Positions 9,763-22,152 of a DNA stretch of 24,761 nt are shown here, one piece after another. This stretch comes from a virus. Below the pieces are notes generated by a model. That model had not been told where the DNA came from, did not search any database, and saw only the letters and a list, made by a program, of their open reading frames with translations. Position 1 is the stretch's first letter; each line of letters opens with the position of its first letter. Both the position numbers and the translations under genes were made by a program. Where the stretch lies: positions 1 to 24,761 of IMG/VR virus record IMGVR_UViG_3300038713_000077; one strand, 5' to 3'.

Positions 9763-10328
9763 TGTCTAGAGGCGTAGCATCAGCAACAGCCACAGAACTT
9801 GCAACTAAAAACTTTAACTTAGTAAACTTGTTAGAGTTTCAGATTGTAAGTGGTTCTCACGTTTTTTTAACAGATGCACCAGTGGATATAACTTACAACA
9901 GTAATACATATCTTTCTACAAGAGGTATGTTAGGTGTAGGTGATATTACAGAAGAAGACCAACTTAAGATTGAAAGTGTTGATATTTCATTATCAGGAGT
10001 ATCAACAGAAAACGTAAAAGCATTTTTAGATTTTAATTATATTGACAGACGTGTCCTTATTCATAGAACAGTTATTGATGCAAACTATACTATTATTGGA
10101 ACACCTATCTTAGTATTTGACGGTAGATTGGATCAACCAAGAATACAAGAAGACTTCAAAGGTGGAACTGCTGTTTTGAGTGTAACAGCAACATCACACT
10201 GGACAGACTTTGAAAAATCAGAAGGACGTCATACAAACACTACTGAACAACAAACTTTGTTTAGTGGTGATAACTTTTTTGATAAAGCAACTGAAATACA
10301 AAAGGATGTAAAGTGGGGACGAAGTTAA
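9762..10328 (+). CDS. Tail tip protein, DUF2163-like
   Basis: The 188-residue product begins in a TAATG overlap with the previous gene. It has the run of short strands seen in DUF2163-type minor tail proteins. NLVNLLEFQIVSG is followed by a strand with a DAPVDITYNSNTYLS segment. Then come LSGVSTENVKAFL, a FDGRLDQPRIQEDFKGG motif, and a C-terminal HWTDFEKSEGRHTN...QQTLFSGDNFFDKATEI...KWGR region. In Rhodobacter GTA and related phages this protein lies next to the cysteine peptidase and hub, as here. Its 3' end overlaps the peptidase gene by 16 bases. Confidence 0.72.
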   Translation: MSRGVASATATELATKNFNLVNLLEFQIVSGSHVFLTDAPVDITYNSNTYLSTRGMLGVGDITEEDQLKIESVDISLSGVSTENVKAFLDFNYIDRRVLIHRTVIDANYTIIGTPILVFDGRLDQPRIQEDFKGGTAVLSVTATSHWTDFEKSEGRHTNTTEQQTLFSGDNFFDKATEIQKDVKWGRS

Positions 10329-10747
10329 TAAACACTTGGGCAAAACGATTGATTAACCAAAAGTTTACTTGGGGTATCAATGACTGTCATCAACTGCTAT
10401 ATGATTTTCTTAAGTTGCAAAACATTGATTGGAAAGATCCACACAACTATGGTAGTTTACGTGGAACATACAATAACAGACGAGAAGCATCACGTGTCGC
10501 AGAAGAAATGAAGCCAGTAAAAGAACAGTTAGAAGAACTTGGCTACACACGAAGACCGGTAAATAGAGTAGAAGCAGGTGATATAGTTTGGGTTCCAAAC
10601 AAAAAAGAAAAATATGATATGTATCTTCCTGTAATATATGGACAAACTTGTTTATGTTCAGATTTGAAAGATTTAGTTATCAAGCAAGTTCATATTGACA
10701 ATATAGTCAAACCAGGATGGGAAGTATTTAGGAAAGCATATGTTTAG
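10313..10747 (+). CDS. NlpC/P60-like tail-associated cysteine peptidase (DUF6950-like)
   Basis: The 144-residue protein starts at a GTG with AGGA about seven bases upstream. The N-terminal FTWGINDCHQLLYDFL segment (Cys25) matches the nucleophile helix of NlpC/P60-like phage proteins, and EAGDIVWVP near residue 85 matches their GDIV strand. Such proteins are thought to trim peptidoglycan during DNA entry. The order (DUF2163-like, peptidase, hub) is that of GTA and many siphoviruses. The catalytic His is not obvious: candidates are in the KQVHIDN segment, so loss of activity cannot be excluded. The start overlaps the upstream gene. Confidence 0.72.
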   Translation: MGTKLINTWAKRLINQKFTWGINDCHQLLYDFLKLQNIDWKDPHNYGSLRGTYNNRREASRVAEEMKPVKEQLEELGYTRRPVNRVEAGDIVWVPNKKEKYDMYLPVIYGQTCLCSDLKDLVIKQVHIDNIVKPGWEVFRKAYV

Positions 10748-12284: not shown

Positions 12285-13433
12285 ATGACTATTATTACAC
12301 CAGGAACAGCGGCGCCAGGATCAATCGTAACAGCACAATTGGCTAACGATTCAGTTGATGCTACAAAGATTAACTTTGGCACAGGTTCAAATCAAGTTAA
12401 TACAGATGACTTGCCAGAAGGTTCAACAAATCAATATCATACAAATGAACGTGTAGACGATAGAGTAAATGCATTATTACAAGCAGGAACAAACATAACA
12501 TTAACATATGATGATACTGCTAATACACTTACTATAGCGGCTACAGAAGATAATCTAGCAAACAATAGTTTATTTGACTTATCAGATGTTACTGGCACAC
12601 ACGGTGCAGGTAAACTGTTAGTCAATACAGGTTCTGCCTTTGCCGCAGTAGATGTGACAACAGATAGTATTACAGAAGGTTCAAGTAATTTATTTCATAC
12701 TACTGCAAGGGCTATTTCAGCAGTAGAAGGCGAAAGCACACTTAACTTACAAGAGGGTGTAACTGTTGATACAGATATTAGAATAGGAAACTGGGACTAT
12801 AGAAACAATTCAAACTTTCCTGTTACAGGAGTAAAGATAATATCACCAGAAGATAAAGTTAAATGGGCTATGATTAACTTAGAAGAATTTGGTGGCAACT
12901 TAGCAGATGCAGATGACAAACCATTTAATATCAATAACCCTACAATAGCAGGTGTAGTTCACGGTGGAACAGAAGCATCACCTACAGCAGTAGGATCTGG
13001 TATAAGAACTATGGTAGTTGCAGGTTCTCCACGTTTCGGAACAGGTAATGGAGATATAGATACAACTGCACAAATAACTTTTTTCACCGCAGAAGCACAA
13101 TCATCAACTAATCGTGGGGCAGAGATGATATTTAAGGTTACCCCAACAACAAGAACTGGTATGGAAGATTGGCTAAAAGTAAATGCTACAGCATTAACTA
13201 ATCTTAATATAGCATATGACCCAAATGGTAGTTTTCAACAAACCGTATTGTCCACGCAGTCAACTAACGGTTTTCAAATAGATGATACTGTAAAAATGAA
13301 TAATGCTATATTCAAAGTAGCCAACTTATCAAGTGATCCTACAACAGGCAATGAAGCAGGAAACATATATTTTAATACAACCGATAACAAGTTTAGAGGT
13401 TACAATGGAACAGCGTGGGTAGATTTATCATAA
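12285..13433 (+). CDS. Tail fibre-like / tip-associated protein
   Basis: The 382-residue protein lies just after the hub. It begins with a fibre N-terminus (GTAAPGSIVTAQLANDSVDATKI) and holds two copies of the EGS(S/T)N-x-(Y/F)HT...R motif (residues about 45 and 129) common in marine phage fibres. Residues about 166-299 form a module that is paralogous to one in the long fibre at 19183-22152. It ends with the common AGNIYFNTTDNKFRGYNGTAWVDLS tip. A role in host recognition is inferred from these repeats and position. The start has no strong ribosome site and probably depends on translation of the hub. Confidence 0.75.
   Translation: MTIITPGTAAPGSIVTAQLANDSVDATKINFGTGSNQVNTDDLPEGSTNQYHTNERVDDRVNALLQAGTNITLTYDDTANTLTIAATEDNLANNSLFDLSDVTGTHGAGKLLVNTGSAFAAVDVTTDSITEGSSNLFHTTARAISAVEGESTLNLQEGVTVDTDIRIGNWDYRNNSNFPVTGVKIISPEDKVKWAMINLEEFGGNLADADDKPFNINNPTIAGVVHGGTEASPTAVGSGIRTMVVAGSPRFGTGNGDIDTTAQITFFTAEAQSSTNRGAEMIFKVTPTTRTGMEDWLKVNATALTNLNIAYDPNGSFQQTVLSTQSTNGFQIDDTVKMNNAIFKVANLSSDPTTGNEAGNIYFNTTDNKFRGYNGTAWVDLS
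12780..13180 (+). repeat. Fibre module, copy A (paralogous to 21319-21720)
   Basis: The encoded segment shares an ordered set of landmarks with residues about 713-846 of the long fibre: V(K/A)W-x-x-I-x-x-x-EF-G, a KP(F/I)N segment, then a short hydrophobic MVV or LVV strand, S-x-x-RG-x-E, and T-x-x-x-ME before a final KV strand. Similarity is in protein only. Confidence 0.6.
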
Positions 13434-13651
13434 TGTTAGAACAAAAAGCAAATACAATGAATAGTTATACTGTGATGCGTTTAGATTTTATGCTTGACAG
13501 ATACAAAGATTTTGGGTTCATTGATTTATCTGAACTACACGAATTCGTTATTGAGTTCAGAAAATTACCGAAAGAAAAACAAGAGAAGTATGCATTCTTA
13601 TTAGATGAGTGTGCAGAACTATTTGACGAGAGCGAACAACCGGTGAATTGA
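13433..13651 (+). CDS. Small acidic protein of unknown function, 72 aa
   Basis: The preferred start is the ATG in the TAATG overlap with the previous gene; a GTG 18 bases upstream would add six residues inside the fibre gene. The product is helical and acidic, with a basic/hydrophobic N-terminal half (VMRLDFMLDRYKDFGFIDLSELHEFV) and an acidic C-terminus (LLDECAELFDESEQ). No family is recognised. It opens the string of small genes at the end of the late block, and the next gene starts one base after its TGA. Confidence 0.7.
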   Translation: MLEQKANTMNSYTVMRLDFMLDRYKDFGFIDLSELHEFVIEFRKLPKEKQEKYAFLLDECAELFDESEQPVN

Positions 13652-13652
13652 T

Positions 13653-13904
13653 ATGGCAAAGAAACCAACAACATTAAGTGCAACAGTTATTAAGAGTTTA
13701 CGTGCAAGAGCAAAGACAACTAAAAGATATAACTTTACAGACTTAGCGAAAGTATATCGTAGAGGTCAAGGTGCATATTTAGGTGCTGGATCAAGACCAG
13801 GAGTATCTATGAGTGCGTGGGCTTTTGGTAGAGTAAATAGTTTTATCAGAGGCGGAAGACACGACCAAGATATTCGTAGAGCCGCCGCAAAAAGGAACAA
13901 ATGA
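13653..13904 (+). CDS. Small very basic protein, 83 aa (possible DUF5824-like module)
   Basis: The product is rich in Arg, Lys and Ala. It has a recognisable order of motifs: SLRARAKTTKRYNFTDLAKVYRRGQGAY, then GSRPGVSMSAWAFGRVNSFIRGG, and a basic tail. Similar KARAKKSG...VYRRGxGAY...S.xxWAxARVNSF segments occur in other marine phage and large DNA virus proteins; I associate them with a domain of unknown function (possibly DUF5824), from memory and not certain. The basic charge and virion-linked context suggest an internal head or DNA-associated protein, which is inference. Confidence 0.75.
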   Translation: MAKKPTTLSATVIKSLRARAKTTKRYNFTDLAKVYRRGQGAYLGAGSRPGVSMSAWAFGRVNSFIRGGRHDQDIRRAAAKRNK

Positions 13905-13905
13905 C

Positions 13906-14100
13906 GTGGCTAGTTATCGTGGATCACCTTGCAAAGGAGACTGTTCTGGACATCGTGCTGGCGCCAGATATGCTAGAAATGGTGGCAGAACACTTACACG
14001 AAGTAGTTCAAGTTTTAATAATGGTATGAGAATAGAACAACGTGCTATGAAAAACAAAGGTAAAAGAACTCGTATGAGTATTACAAGGAAATCAAAGTAA
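13906..14100 (+). CDS. Small basic protein with CxGDCSGHRAG motif, 64 aa
   Basis: The start is GTG, one base after the TGA of the preceding gene; AAAGGA lies about eight bases upstream. An ATG five bases earlier is in another frame. The N-terminus reads RGSPCKGDCSGHRAGARYA, a compact motif with two cysteines and a histidine (C9, C13, H16) that I recall as recurring in other phage proteins, often as a module. It is followed by SSSSFNNGMRIEQRAM and a strongly basic tail. Function is unknown. Its end overlaps the next start (TAATG). Confidence 0.75.
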   Translation: MASYRGSPCKGDCSGHRAGARYARNGGRTLTRSSSSFNNGMRIEQRAMKNKGKRTRMSITRKSK

Positions 14101-14294
14101 TGGCAAAGTATCGTAAAGTTGCAAAAGACAAAATGTCTGGAATACCAAAGAAGTATTTGAGCGGCACAGAAGGAACAAGAAGACGTAGATTAGCAAGTGT
14201 AATAACTAGAATAAGTAATTTATATAAAGCAGGTAAAAGAATACCTCAAAGTTTAATAGATGAAAGAATAAGATTAGGTAGAAAGAAAGATTAA
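14100..14294 (+). CDS. Small very basic protein with GIPKKYLSG motif, 64 aa
   Basis: The product is dominated by Lys and Arg. It begins AKYRKVAKDKMSGIPKKYLSG, followed by a helix (RRRRLASVITRISNLYKAGKRIP) and a basic end. A GxPKKYLSG...YKxGKxI pattern is familiar from other phages as a small module of unknown function. It starts in a TAATG overlap with the gene before, and the next gene starts in the same way, so the four genes here are probably translated together. A nucleic-acid-binding role is plausible from charge but not shown. Confidence 0.75.
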   Translation: MAKYRKVAKDKMSGIPKKYLSGTEGTRRRRLASVITRISNLYKAGKRIPQSLIDERIRLGRKKD

Positions 14295-14614
14295 TGCCAT
14301 ACAGACCAACACAAGCAATGAGAGATGCGGCACAGACTGCACTTAACTACAATGATGAAGTTGCACCATCACAAAGATGGGGAACACCTGTTGGCAGAAG
14401 ACGAGCAAGAAAGATTGTAAATAATGGTGAGTTCAATAAAACAGAAATAGCACAAATATTTGCATTCTTATCAAGGTTCAAAGACGAATATGAGAGACAA
14501 AGATCCGCAAAGAAATATGGTAAGGCATATATGGCGTATCTAGGATGGGGCGGGCCATCTGGATTAACTTGGGCAGAAGATAAACTCAGAAGATATGAAC
14601 GAGCAGGAGAGTGA
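14294..14614 (+). CDS. Small basic protein with GWGGxxGLTWAE module, 106 aa
   Basis: Residues about 6-100 follow a pattern I know from many phage head-region proteins: MRDAAQTALNYN, then GTPVGRRRARKIVNNGEFNKTEIAQIFAFLSRF, and near the end AYMAYLGWGGPSGLTWAEDKLRR. In other phages this module often sits at the end of head protease, portal or other virion proteins; its job is unknown. Here it is a stand-alone gene. It starts in a TAATG overlap and ends shortly before a GTG-started gene. Confidence 0.78.
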   Translation: MPYRPTQAMRDAAQTALNYNDEVAPSQRWGTPVGRRRARKIVNNGEFNKTEIAQIFAFLSRFKDEYERQRSAKKYGKAYMAYLGWGGPSGLTWAEDKLRRYERAGE

Positions 14615-14620
14615 GGAAAT

Positions 14621-14890
14621 GTGCCTAAGTATACAGTATTAAATCCAGACAAATTCAAATACGCAAACAAACTCAAACAAAGACAAAGACTAAAATCAGG
14701 AAGCAATGCTATTATATTAGTTGATTGCAATGCTGATTTGTCTCTTATACCTGCAGGCGTAACAATTACAACACCATTAGTGCCAAGAATAAACTTTTGG
14801 GAGATACATTTTGGTAAAAATGGTGAATATGGTGAAGAAAATATAAAAAAACTTGCAAAAAGACTTGACGCGGTCGCATTTATGTGTTAA
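14621..14890 (+). CDS. Small protein of unknown function, 89 aa
   Basis: The start is a GTG with GAGG five to eight bases upstream; the ATG two bases before it is in another frame. The N-terminus is basic (PKYTVLNPDKFKYANKLKQRQRLK). The rest looks alpha/beta, with a hydrophobic strand (AIILVDCNADLSLIPAGVTI) and a C-terminal helix ending in FMC. No family is recognised. It is the last gene before the intrinsic terminator, so it closes the late operon. Confidence 0.72.
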   Translation: MPKYTVLNPDKFKYANKLKQRQRLKSGSNAIILVDCNADLSLIPAGVTITTPLVPRINFWEIHFGKNGEYGEENIKKLAKRLDAVAFMC

Positions 14891-15018: not shown

Positions 15019-15047
15019 TTGACAATGATAAATAACTATGTTATTAT
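15019..15047 (+). promoter_or_regulatory. Sigma70-type promoter of the 15.1-17.5 kb operon
   Basis: TTGACA (15019-15024), a 17-base spacer and TATTAT (15042-15047): a perfect -35 and a five-of-six -10 hexamer. The start point would be near 15054, some 28 bases before the first gene. It directly abuts the upstream terminator. Confidence 0.88.
15031..15045 (+). promoter_or_regulatory. Candidate operator within the promoter spacer
   Basis: AATAACTATGTTATT is a perfect 6+3+6 inverted repeat lying between the -35 and -10 boxes and overlapping the -10. A nearly identical palindrome (AATAACAAGTTATT) occurs at 17530-17543 near the second promoter. A dimeric repressor bound here would block RNA polymerase. 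AT-rich palindromes can arise by chance, so this is a hypothesis. Confidence 0.5.
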
Positions 15048-15081: not shown

Positions 15082-15357
15082 ATGAAACAGACAGACTATA
15101 AGTTTGAAAAAGTATTAACAAGACCTGAGGCTGTAAGAAATTCAGCCCGTGTATCGGCTAATGAAATTGCCAAGTTCGTAAAGGACTTAAGGAAGCAACG
15201 ATATGGTCAAAAAGGTTTTGAGGAACTTGCTTGGGGATCAGTTGAGTTTTTCTCAAAGCATTACATTAAACAGTTGAGACGAGTTGCTAGAAAAAAAGAT
15301 AGTTACTTTGTAGAACTAGATAAGAGTATGACCGATGAATACGAAAACAAACAGTAA
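15082..15357 (+). CDS. Unknown basic protein, 91 aa (first gene of the cassette)
   Basis: The gene begins after ATAGGAGATT, a good ribosome site, about 35 bases downstream of a strong promoter, so it is probably the first and best-expressed gene of its operon. The product is helical and basic: TRPEAVRNSARVSANEIAKFVKDLRKQRYGQKGF, then ELAWGSVEFFSKHYIKQLRRVARKK, and an acidic end. The N-terminal part might hold a DNA-binding helix pair, but no family is recognised. Its 3' end overlaps the next gene by 23 bases. Confidence 0.8.
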   Translation: MKQTDYKFEKVLTRPEAVRNSARVSANEIAKFVKDLRKQRYGQKGFEELAWGSVEFFSKHYIKQLRRVARKKDSYFVELDKSMTDEYENKQ

Positions 15358-18847: not shown

Positions 18848-19183
18848 ATGGCAGGATCATTAGATTTAACTATTGAGCAAGGCGCTACGTTTGAACGTAG
18901 TATCACAATAAAAGATAGTTCAAATGTCGCTATTAACATCTCAGGTAGTTCTTTTGCAGGTCAAGTAAGAAAAAGACATCAAAGTGCTACTAAAGAAGCA
19001 GACTTTGATTTCACAATAACAAATGCAACAGGCGGTGTAGTTAAAGCAACTATTACAGCCGCAAACACTGGTAATATGACACCAGGTGATTTTGTATATG
19101 ATATTGAATGGACACAATCAGATAGTTCAGTTACTAGATTACTTGAAGGAACTGCAACTGTAACTCCTCAGGTGACTAGATAA
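18848..19183 (+). CDS. Baseplate/fibre-anchoring protein (BppU N-terminal-like)
   Basis: A strong AAGGAG site precedes this 111-residue, beta-rich protein. It has the immunoglobulin-like plan of the N-terminal domain of receptor-binding baseplate proteins: LDLTIEQGATFERSITIKD, then INISGSSFAGQVRKRH, DFTITNATGGVVKATI, and DFVYDIEWTQSD...RLLEGTATVTPQVTR. It probably attaches the long fibre, whose gene begins in a TAATG overlap with this one. The name of the family is by pattern, not by search. Confidence 0.7.
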   Translation: MAGSLDLTIEQGATFERSITIKDSSNVAINISGSSFAGQVRKRHQSATKEADFDFTITNATGGVVKATITAANTGNMTPGDFVYDIEWTQSDSSVTRLLEGTATVTPQVTR

Positions 19184-22152
19184 TGACAAATGTAACAGTA
19201 TCAGAAACAAAATATAACGTATCGATTGCAGAAACAAATCAAAATGTAACAACTACACAAACTGGTGCAATTAACGTATCAGTTAATGCAACAGATTTAG
19301 CCACAAGTATATCAAACGCAGGCAGTGGCGCAGAAGTATTAAAATCATTAACAAACAATATTCTTACTGCAAGAACATTAACAAATACTGAGGGAGATAT
19401 TACTTTCACTCAGGGAACAGACACTATAGATATCAATCTAAGTGACCAAATAGAAATTTCAACTTTAGCAGTGCAAGGCTCTAGTGGTGATACATTCACT
19501 ACTGCATCTGGCGGAACAGCACGTTTCAATGGGCCAGTTGTTATGAACCAAAGTTTACTTGCAGGTAACATTGATGGCGCTTCAACTATCGATGGCACAG
19601 GTAATATTATTATTACACCTGGATCAAGTAACTTTGTTCACGCAAATACGCAGTTAAGTGTAGGTAATACTTCAACACCACAATCTGTAGAAATCACGGG
19701 AACGACAATAGGTAAGTCTAGTGGTTCAGCAACTGACATTACATTTACAGGAAATCACAGCGGAAATTTAACTGCCGCAACTACAAACATAAGTGGTCAT
19801 CTTATTCCGGCAACAGATGATACACACGATTTAGGTTCAACAACAAAGAGATTTAGAGACTTATATCTAGGGCCAGGATCTTTGTTTATTAACAACCAAA
19901 AAGTTTTAGAAGATGATAGTGGAACTATCAAGATTACAACTGACAATGGACAAAACTTAAACGTTCAAGCAGGTGGCACAATCACTATGTTATCAAGTGG
20001 TGCAGTCACTACAATACAAGATACAACAGTAAACTTAGGCCCTTCAGTAGGAGGCGGAACAGTTGCTTTACGTGGTAATGATATGTCAGGTATCGGCACT
20101 GCAACTGCAACAAAGTTTACTGCTGGCACACAAGAAGTAACAAGCGGTAAAATAGAACAAACTGCTAGTGGTGGTAATATAGAAATCAAAACACCTACTA
20201 ATGGTTTCATACTTGCAAACACAGGAGACTTTTATGTAGGTAATGGTGATCCAGCAAGTGATGAGTTTATCAAGATTGATGAGAATACTATTACAAAAGT
20301 TGGTGGTGGTAGTTTAACACTAACAGGTTCAGTTACTGGACAAGTATCAGATATATCAAATCATTTATTAGATGAAGATGATTTTAGTTCTGATAGTGCA
20401 ACAAAGGCACCATCACAACAATCAACAAAGGCGTATATCGCTTCACAAATTCAAACAAAAGATAACACAGATGAAATAACAGAAGGCTCAAGTAACTTAT
20501 ATTTTACAGATGCAAGAGCAAGAGCGGCTATCTCAGAAGATAGCACACAGTTATCATATAACAGTTCAACAGGTGTATTATCATATACACAAGGTAATAC
20601 AGATACAGTAGCAGAAGGTAGTTCAAATCTTTATCATACAAGTGCAAGAGCAATCTCTGCCGTAGAAGGTGAAAGCACTCTAGACTTAAGTGGAGCAGTT
20701 ACAATAACTGGACAACTTACAGCAAATGATATTATCAAAGTAGATGATGGCTTTATCTTAACAGCATTCAACCCATATGGCTCAGGAAACAATATGCCTA
20801 CATCAATTATGGGTGTAGGACAAGAAGATGGTTGGGCAGGTGTTCACGTAAGAAACAGAGGTCAACACGATTTCGGATTAGGATCAGGACTTAACTTCTC
20901 ACCAAGAGCATTAGTTGTTATGTCAGCAGGTCGTAAAGACGGCTCAAACAATGACGATTACTTAGATACTGGAGATGAGTTCGGCGTATTATCATTTAAT
21001 CCATACTCAGGATATAAAACTGGTGCAGAATGGTTAACAGGATCAGTAGAGATTTCAGCAATCGCAACTGAGAACCATAGTGCAACAGGGTTAGGTTCTA
21101 AACTAAGGATTGGCACAACAGAGAATGGTGAAGAAGCAGGTGCAACAGAAAGTTCTCACGTTAGTAAAACTATTGATATTCACGGCACAACTATTACAAC
21201 CAGTGATACACTAAAGATTGATGATGATTTAACTGTTACAGGTAATATTGGTAATGAAGGTTCAGCAGTAGATTTTGACGATAACATTAAAGTTACAGGC
21301 AATGTATCAAGCAAGATAACAACAATAGGTGACTTTGATAGTTCTGGTTCACCAGCATATTCAATGTCAGGTATTCAAATCAACAGTGGTGATGTTGCTT
21401 GGCCAACAATTACATTCAAAGAGTTTGCAGGCACAGATGGTGGTGGTAATAAACCAATCAATCTATTTACAAACCCTGGATTTGAAACAGAAGTATTTGG
21501 AGGCACACCAAGTTCACCAGCGGCACTAGGTGATGCAAAACGTATTCTTGTTGTTAATGGTAACGCGGCTAATGGAGCAAGTTTACCAGGCACAGCAAAC
21601 ATTCGTATCTTAGGTAAAACAGTTGGCGTTCAGTCTGGCTCAAACAGAGGCACAGAGTTTATCGTAGAAACAACACCAAGTAATACGACTTCAACAATGG
21701 AGTCTATTAAAGTTATAGCAAACAAACTTATTATTGGTGATAGCGGACACGAAAGCGGTGATGCTCGTTTATCAGCAAACGGTGGTAACATAAAACTTGA
21801 AGATATATTAGATACAAATAATAACAATATTATCAACAGTGGCGGTGATGTTACAGTTGATGATAACTTAAAAGTAAACACAAACTTAACAGTAGATGGT
21901 AATACAACTTTAGGAAATGCAAACACTGACACCATAACAGTAAATGGTGTTATGTCGATTGCAGACACAGCCGGACTAAAGATTGGTAATATTAACTATT
22001 CAACAGCAGTATTTTTAGATAGCAACACATTAGTTTCAACAGGTGGTATTGCATTCTTAACATCAGGCGGAAACAGAACAAACAAACCAATTTATTATGA
22101 TGGAAGTGATTGGCGTTATTTCTCTGATGATAGTGTAATAGCGAGTGCATAA
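19183..22152 (+). CDS. Long tail fibre / receptor-binding protein
   Basis: The 989-residue protein is rich in Thr, Ser, Gly, Asn and Asp with repeated short strands, as in trimeric beta-helical fibres. Landmarks in order: DDTHDLGSTTKRFRDLYLG (about residue 210), two EGSSNLY(F/H)T...AR repeats (about 434 and 478), a globular region around GQEDGWAGVHVRNRGQHDFG (about 547), a second related region (713-846) paralogous to the fibre gene at 12285-13433, and a tip ending KPIYYDGSDWRYFSDD. It likely binds the host surface. Its gene is far from the tail-tip genes on the linear map but in the same presumed transcript. No chaperone domain was seen at the C-terminus. Confidence 0.85.
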   Translation: MTNVTVSETKYNVSIAETNQNVTTTQTGAINVSVNATDLATSISNAGSGAEVLKSLTNNILTARTLTNTEGDITFTQGTDTIDINLSDQIEISTLAVQGSSGDTFTTASGGTARFNGPVVMNQSLLAGNIDGASTIDGTGNIIITPGSSNFVHANTQLSVGNTSTPQSVEITGTTIGKSSGSATDITFTGNHSGNLTAATTNISGHLIPATDDTHDLGSTTKRFRDLYLGPGSLFINNQKVLEDDSGTIKITTDNGQNLNVQAGGTITMLSSGAVTTIQDTTVNLGPSVGGGTVALRGNDMSGIGTATATKFTAGTQEVTSGKIEQTASGGNIEIKTPTNGFILANTGDFYVGNGDPASDEFIKIDENTITKVGGGSLTLTGSVTGQVSDISNHLLDEDDFSSDSATKAPSQQSTKAYIASQIQTKDNTDEITEGSSNLYFTDARARAAISEDSTQLSYNSSTGVLSYTQGNTDTVAEGSSNLYHTSARAISAVEGESTLDLSGAVTITGQLTANDIIKVDDGFILTAFNPYGSGNNMPTSIMGVGQEDGWAGVHVRNRGQHDFGLGSGLNFSPRALVVMSAGRKDGSNNDDYLDTGDEFGVLSFNPYSGYKTGAEWLTGSVEISAIATENHSATGLGSKLRIGTTENGEEAGATESSHVSKTIDIHGTTITTSDTLKIDDDLTVTGNIGNEGSAVDFDDNIKVTGNVSSKITTIGDFDSSGSPAYSMSGIQINSGDVAWPTITFKEFAGTDGGGNKPINLFTNPGFETEVFGGTPSSPAALGDAKRILVVNGNAANGASLPGTANIRILGKTVGVQSGSNRGTEFIVETTPSNTTSTMESIKVIANKLIIGDSGHESGDARLSANGGNIKLEDILDTNNNNIINSGGDVTVDDNLKVNTNLTVDGNTTLGNANTDTITVNGVMSIADTAGLKIGNINYSTAVFLDSNTLVSTGGIAFLTSGGNRTNKPIYYDGSDWRYFSDDSVIASA
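21319..21720 (+). repeat. Fibre module, copy B (paralogous to 12780-13180)
   Basis: The encoded segment shares the order VAWPTITFKEFAG, NKPIN, a hydrophobic LVV strand, SNRGTEF and STMESIKV with the module in the other fibre gene. A third, more distant relative may lie at about 20734-21230. DNA similarity is low. Confidence 0.6.

Follow-up and report, generated by a model that had tools for sequence, protein, structure and literature searches.

We report that four tandem genes in a small marine phage record, here called A to D, are most likely (with a probability of roughly 0.58) stand-alone members of a shuffled kit of basic head-module proteins, i.e., small internal head proteins on the packaged DNA. 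That A to D belong to the head module is well supported by sequence comparison. The parts of this kit are uncharacterised families, some of them already catalogued; what appears to be new is the link between the families, i.e., their common location, their shuffling and their fusion to portal and capsid proteins, and a literature search limited to open-licence papers found no description of such a link among the families designated A to H below.

The window (i.e., the whole stretch of DNA analysed, 24,761 bases) carries siphovirus-type genes for scaffold (matching phrog_206), major capsid, tail terminator, tail tube, tape measure, distal tail and J-like fibre proteins; these structural genes are followed by early genes and then by the large terminase gene. 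As the portal reading frame is interrupted by both window ends, we take the record to be a genome that is permuted and close to complete. The A to D block is located 3' of the fibre genes and one short acidic gene. Gene A (positions 13653 to 13904) encodes 83 aa, gene B (13906 to 14100, with a GTG start) 64 aa, gene C (14100 to 14294) 64 aa and gene D (14294 to 14614) 106 aa, all on the plus strand. The sequence-only reading had described these genes as tightly joined, highly basic and characterized by one motif each, and our analyses agreed on all three points. A single base separates A from B, as well as A from the preceding gene, and TAATG overlaps join B to C and C to D; the motifs are YRRGQGAY...AWAFGRVNSF in A, CKGDCSGHRAG in B, GIPKKYLSG in C and GWGGPSGLTWAE in D. 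The pI values for A, B, C and D are 11.9, 11.8, 11.3 and 10.0, respectively (net charges of +17, +15, +15 and +8), as compared to 4.3 to 5.4 for most structural proteins of the window; such charges would be compatible with DNA binding.

The acidic gene directly 5' of A (13415 to 13651, plus strand; 78 aa, pI 4.7) also precedes A in the relatives L007, L008 and L057 and possibly shares a transcript with the block. In the same three relatives, an 89-aa reading frame located directly 3' of D (14621 to 14890, plus strand) occupies the same place behind D; in the window it is the last one before a strong promoter-like site at 15019 to 15047 (11 of 12 positions, with TG ahead of the second hexamer), which is found 3' of the block and 5' of position 15082.

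A to D are real, conserved genes. Scans of viral contigs found many homologues for each of them, and dN/dS ratios against close relatives ranged from 0.11 to 0.30 in 10 of 12 comparisons, the two outlying comparisons being C against L057 (0.87) and one with saturated dS; this homology and the mostly low dN/dS rule out chance reading frames. In a nucleotide-level comparison with known phages, the sole matches were short patches within gene A, shared with three pelagiphages. None of the families A to H is represented in NCBIfam, and sequence searches of the PDB with profiles of all four families A to D returned nothing meaningful.

The position of homologues relative to the head genes was assessed with profiles that were built from the viral-contig scan matches and then applied to all later loci, by counting distinct proteins in loci with homologous portal and scaffold/capsid genes. 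Between these genes were located 38 of 39 A proteins, 39 of 40 C proteins and 30 of 32 B proteins; D, with 2 of 3, is too rare there to judge. As the portal-to-scaffold/capsid stretch represents only 29%, 29% and 8% of those loci for A, C and B, respectively, binomial probabilities range from 1e-19 to 1e-31, exponents that are overstated because related loci are not independent. Moreover, the cultured Prochlorococcus phage MED4-184 reads portal > ... > G > C > A > F > E > ... > SPP1-like coat protein, and P-HS2 gave the same matches. The MED4-184 portal matches solved portals in the PDB at 4e-17, and its coat protein matches the PDB entries 4an5 and 6r3a at 1e-40, which we take to be the SPP1 coat protein gp13. 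The SPP1 head module comprises the portal gp6, the minor head protein gp7, the scaffold gp11 and the coat protein gp13; judged by the MED4-184 portal and coat proteins, the gene order around the kit is the same as in this type of module. The block is located outside the head module, behind the fibres, in the window and in L007, L008 and L057; in L065 and L066 it is ahead of the terminase.

The same interval in relatives also holds further small families, i.e., E (136 loci; e.g., L311:1197-1460), F (73 loci; L114:6416-6598), G (32 loci; L179:5183-5341) and H (14 loci; L162:4819-5001), most of which have a pI near 12; none of the four was found in the window. Relatives show other arrangements, for example C>A>E, G>C>A>F>E, D>C>A>B and B>H>D, and A>B>C>D was observed in this window only. 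D or B join some A-C clusters, but the majority of B and D genes are found in the absence of A and C. Because the interval also holds E to H, in shuffled orders, A-B-C-D represents one selection from a larger kit.

A and C form the closest pair. Among stand-alone genes, 174 of 184 A genes have C, and 174 of 180 C genes have A, within 60 bases in either order. This adjacency is not an artefact of the query, as 78 of 80 loci retrieved with C also contained A, and most loci retrieved with the A alignment also contained C. Four proteins of approx. 140 aa are C-A fusions (hhalign of the C family against the N-terminus of the fusions, 94.5%, E = 7.7e-8). Gene A matches Pfam PF19141 (DUF5824) with E = 8.4e-9 and 36.1 bits, above the gathering cut-off of 25; the match covers positions 70 to 124 of 127, so that, by this comparison, A is to be classified as matching the C-terminal half of DUF5824 and not as a full member. 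A also matches phrog_28338 (6e-13) and belongs to alignment family A1/A5; C matches phrog_38321 (4e-5) and belongs to the GIPKKYLSG alignment family A3. Neither C nor any other protein of its family matches PF19141 directly, and C alone has no Pfam match. The nucleotidyltransferase-like protein of T4-like phages (HTVC008M gp130) also carries A and C, and here PF19141 positions 1 to 57 fall on the C-profile match and positions 60 to 123 on A. This overlap on a single protein suggests that Pfam DUF5824 is C and A in one chain, with a C-profile match to gp130 that is weak (7e-5 among 16 proteins and 0.47 in another search). Gene A resembles the C-terminal half of DUF5824 and the C-profile match overlaps the N-terminal half, but in the window the two putative halves are encoded separately, with A first, C last and B between them. 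A search limited to open-licence literature found no paper naming DUF5824. Neither DUF5824 nor D turned up in P-SS2, Syn9 or phiM12, so that the published P-SS2 virion proteome is uninformative here.

The AlphaFold model of A is all-helical, with four helices and a fair pLDDT of 84, and its BFVD matches include DUF5824 proteins. Comparison of this model with PDB folds gave a best Z of 5.5, to sigma factors, which is below the level that counts as telling for this tool, and was not used; a predicted fold match to a phiM12 protein (E = 0.28) was without sequence support.

Gene B has no match in Pfam, PHROG, NCBIfam or PDB. Its alignment (17 members) has 21 invariant columns, including Cys9, Cys13 and His16, and the GTG start in the window fits the conserved N-terminus of the family. 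Stand-alone B homologues numbered 97; no B fusions were found among the loci scanned, and a scan aimed at such fusions with an extended Cys motif that occurs in other phages found nothing.

The sequence-only reading had held that the four motifs occur elsewhere as modules of larger virion or head proteins. This was correct for A and D, which are found on portal proteins and on capsid precursors, sometimes together in one protein, and partly for C, which was fused only to A and never to portal or capsid proteins among the loci scanned; it did not hold for B. Its proposal to search other viruses for co-occurrence or fusion of the motifs turned up both, in the form of A and D fusions, C-A fusions and a shared head module. 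Among D loci (the best 80 among >600 matches to a single D subtype, whose proportions are no unbiased census), D was C-terminal to the portal domain in all 26 closed portal fusions and N-terminal to the protease/capsid in all 35 of the other kind. Pfam searches of 76 of the closed D fusions gave 28 matches to two portal families, 21 to S78 protease, 18 to Phage_capsid and 15 to DUF5824. In Roseobacter phage CRP-831, for example, a single 974-aa protein comprises D, A, S78 prohead protease and HK97-type capsid; D precedes the annotated capsid protein in CRP-406 (with S78 protease in between), CRP-811 and Synechococcus phage S-CBS3. In the metagenomic portals L235, L252 and L375, D and then A follow the portal domain. 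Two long portal-MuF fusion proteins (L217:3838-7371 and L219:533-4255) carry, from the portal domain to MuF, A (as DUF5824), DUF3721 (a short Cys/His motif) and D. A is also fused to E in Melnitz-2 gp18 (L144). In CRP-823, D-A is a separate 238-aa reading frame that overlaps the protease-capsid reading frame, as compared to the fused form in CRP-831 (L140:3578-6506 and L141:3986-6910); this difference would be due to recent splitting of the gene, to fusion or to a frameshift error in sequencing. The sequence-only reading had regarded the window genes as split out of larger proteins; the reverse may hold instead, with separate genes between portal and scaffold as the ancestral arrangement from which the fusions arose.

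In known phages, the C-terminus of the portal and the N-terminus of the capsid precursor point into the procapsid. As the fusion termini face the procapsid interior and A to D are strongly basic, internal head proteins at the packaged DNA represent the most likely reading. Fusion to portal or capsid proteins could also follow from gene order alone, whatever the function. One alternative is that the proteins act only during assembly, with scaffold and portal in the procapsid (e.g., in portal incorporation, head size or the core), and do not remain in the mature virion. Stand-alone genes between portal and scaffold would be consistent with such a role, as would the placement of D and A N-terminal to the S78 protease, where HK97-type phages have a scaffold-like region N-terminal to the capsid that is removed on maturation. 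However, scaffolding needs no very high positive charge, the window phage already has a scaffold gene (the phrog_206 match), and a fusion to the C-terminus of the portal is permanent unless cleaved; we thus regard an assembly-only role as distinctly improbable.

The distribution of D extends beyond head genes. D matches phrog_2859 at 7.7e-5 (no Pfam family was over threshold for B, C or D), tblastn matched it to capsid and portal proteins, and its confident model (all-helical, pLDDT 95) matches prohead protease, XkdF and portal proteins in BFVD; Foldseek gave no match for this model at E 0.001 or better, and comparison with PDB folds gave only ferritin-like and other helical look-alikes (best Z 5.2), which were not used. 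Outside head genes, D was found in Rhizobiales chromosomes (stand-alone), in phage PaBG, where it adjoins gyrase genes, and in phage 150E35-1; D thus clearly has uses outside heads. Stand-alone D without a family name occurs in many bacterial chromosomes, those of Rhizobiales above all (L371 to L450, bacterial contigs). The chromosomal copies, the position beside topoisomerase genes in PaBG and the presence of A and C on a nucleotidyltransferase-like protein would fit late DNA- or RNA-binding proteins that are not part of the virion, e.g., proteins on phage DNA before packaging, with the fusions as by-products of neighbourhood. Repeated retention of the modules in long portal and capsid proteins of many lineages is, however, hard to explain without a head function, which makes this alternative very doubtful.

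A further alternative is that the modules travel in the head, leave it together with the DNA and act in the host cell (e.g., by shielding the entering genome, binding the nucleoid or blocking defences), the link to the head being a packaging route. Portal and MuF proteins carry packaged effector domains (PMC5512222), and D and A sit on portal and portal-MuF proteins, i.e., on known carrier types (PMC5512222); the kit also differs between phages, as expected of host-directed cargo. The polyvalent and MuF/portal-fused proteins described previously (PMC5512222) resemble the kit in having domains that are fused to portal or MuF and packaged with the phage, but they are large, often enzymatic and multidomain, whereas the kit modules are mostly 50 to 110 aa, basic and mostly stand-alone. 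Weak support for injection comes from phage S-CREM2, in which a relative of the nucleotidyltransferase-like protein is a virion protein (PMC10665884); this protein is related (32% identity) to the N-terminal part of HTVC008M gp130, which carries C and A. A profile search, however, found none of the modules A to H in the S-CREM2 protein itself, and A to D have neither an enzymatic domain nor a match to known effector families and look like short basic binding domains. Overall, we consider action in the host cell unlikely.

Under the preferred reading of internal head proteins, the kit would normally reside in the interval from the portal gene to the scaffold/capsid genes, and its parts would be shuffled, lost, moved as a block (in the window, to a site that follows the tail fibre genes) or fused to a touching neighbour, at the C-terminus of the portal or at the N-terminus of the protease/capsid precursor. 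By analogy, the modules would be placed inside the procapsid as small internal proteins, where they may bind packaged DNA or bridge DNA with the inner shell or portal. We infer that A to D are located inside the head, are retained in the mature virion, bind DNA and act jointly or as a complex. In open-licence literature, we found no virion proteomics or mass spectrometry record of stand-alone members and no paper on pelagiphage virion proteomes. A stronger version, in which at least eight small basic modules (A to H) form a histone-like combinatorial kit of many marine phages that coats or organises packaged DNA inside the head, with one subset per phage and anchoring in other phages by fusion to portal or capsid precursors, is proposed tentatively, with the odds clearly against it.

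T4-like phages have internal head proteins (IP I-III, Alt) that are small, basic and thought to accompany the DNA in the head in variable sets, and that are processed by the gp21 protease. A to D fit the same description (small, basic, variable), but no prohead protease match was found among the window proteins scanned. If the kit does encode internal head proteins, abundant marine phages would own a modular, exchangeable system for packaged DNA or for cargo delivery into cells. DUF5824, phrog_28338, phrog_38321, phrog_2859 and the unnamed families gain a common setting, i.e., the stretch from portal to capsid gene and the ends of portal proteins and capsid precursors, and annotators could use this setting to name many short "hypothetical" genes.

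Two other proteins of the window were also noted. Positions 19183 to 22152 encode a very acidic protein of 989 aa (pI 4.3, net charge of -57) without a Pfam or PHROG match, and positions 10313 to 10747, in the tail region, encode a protein that matches DUF6950 (2.3e-7).
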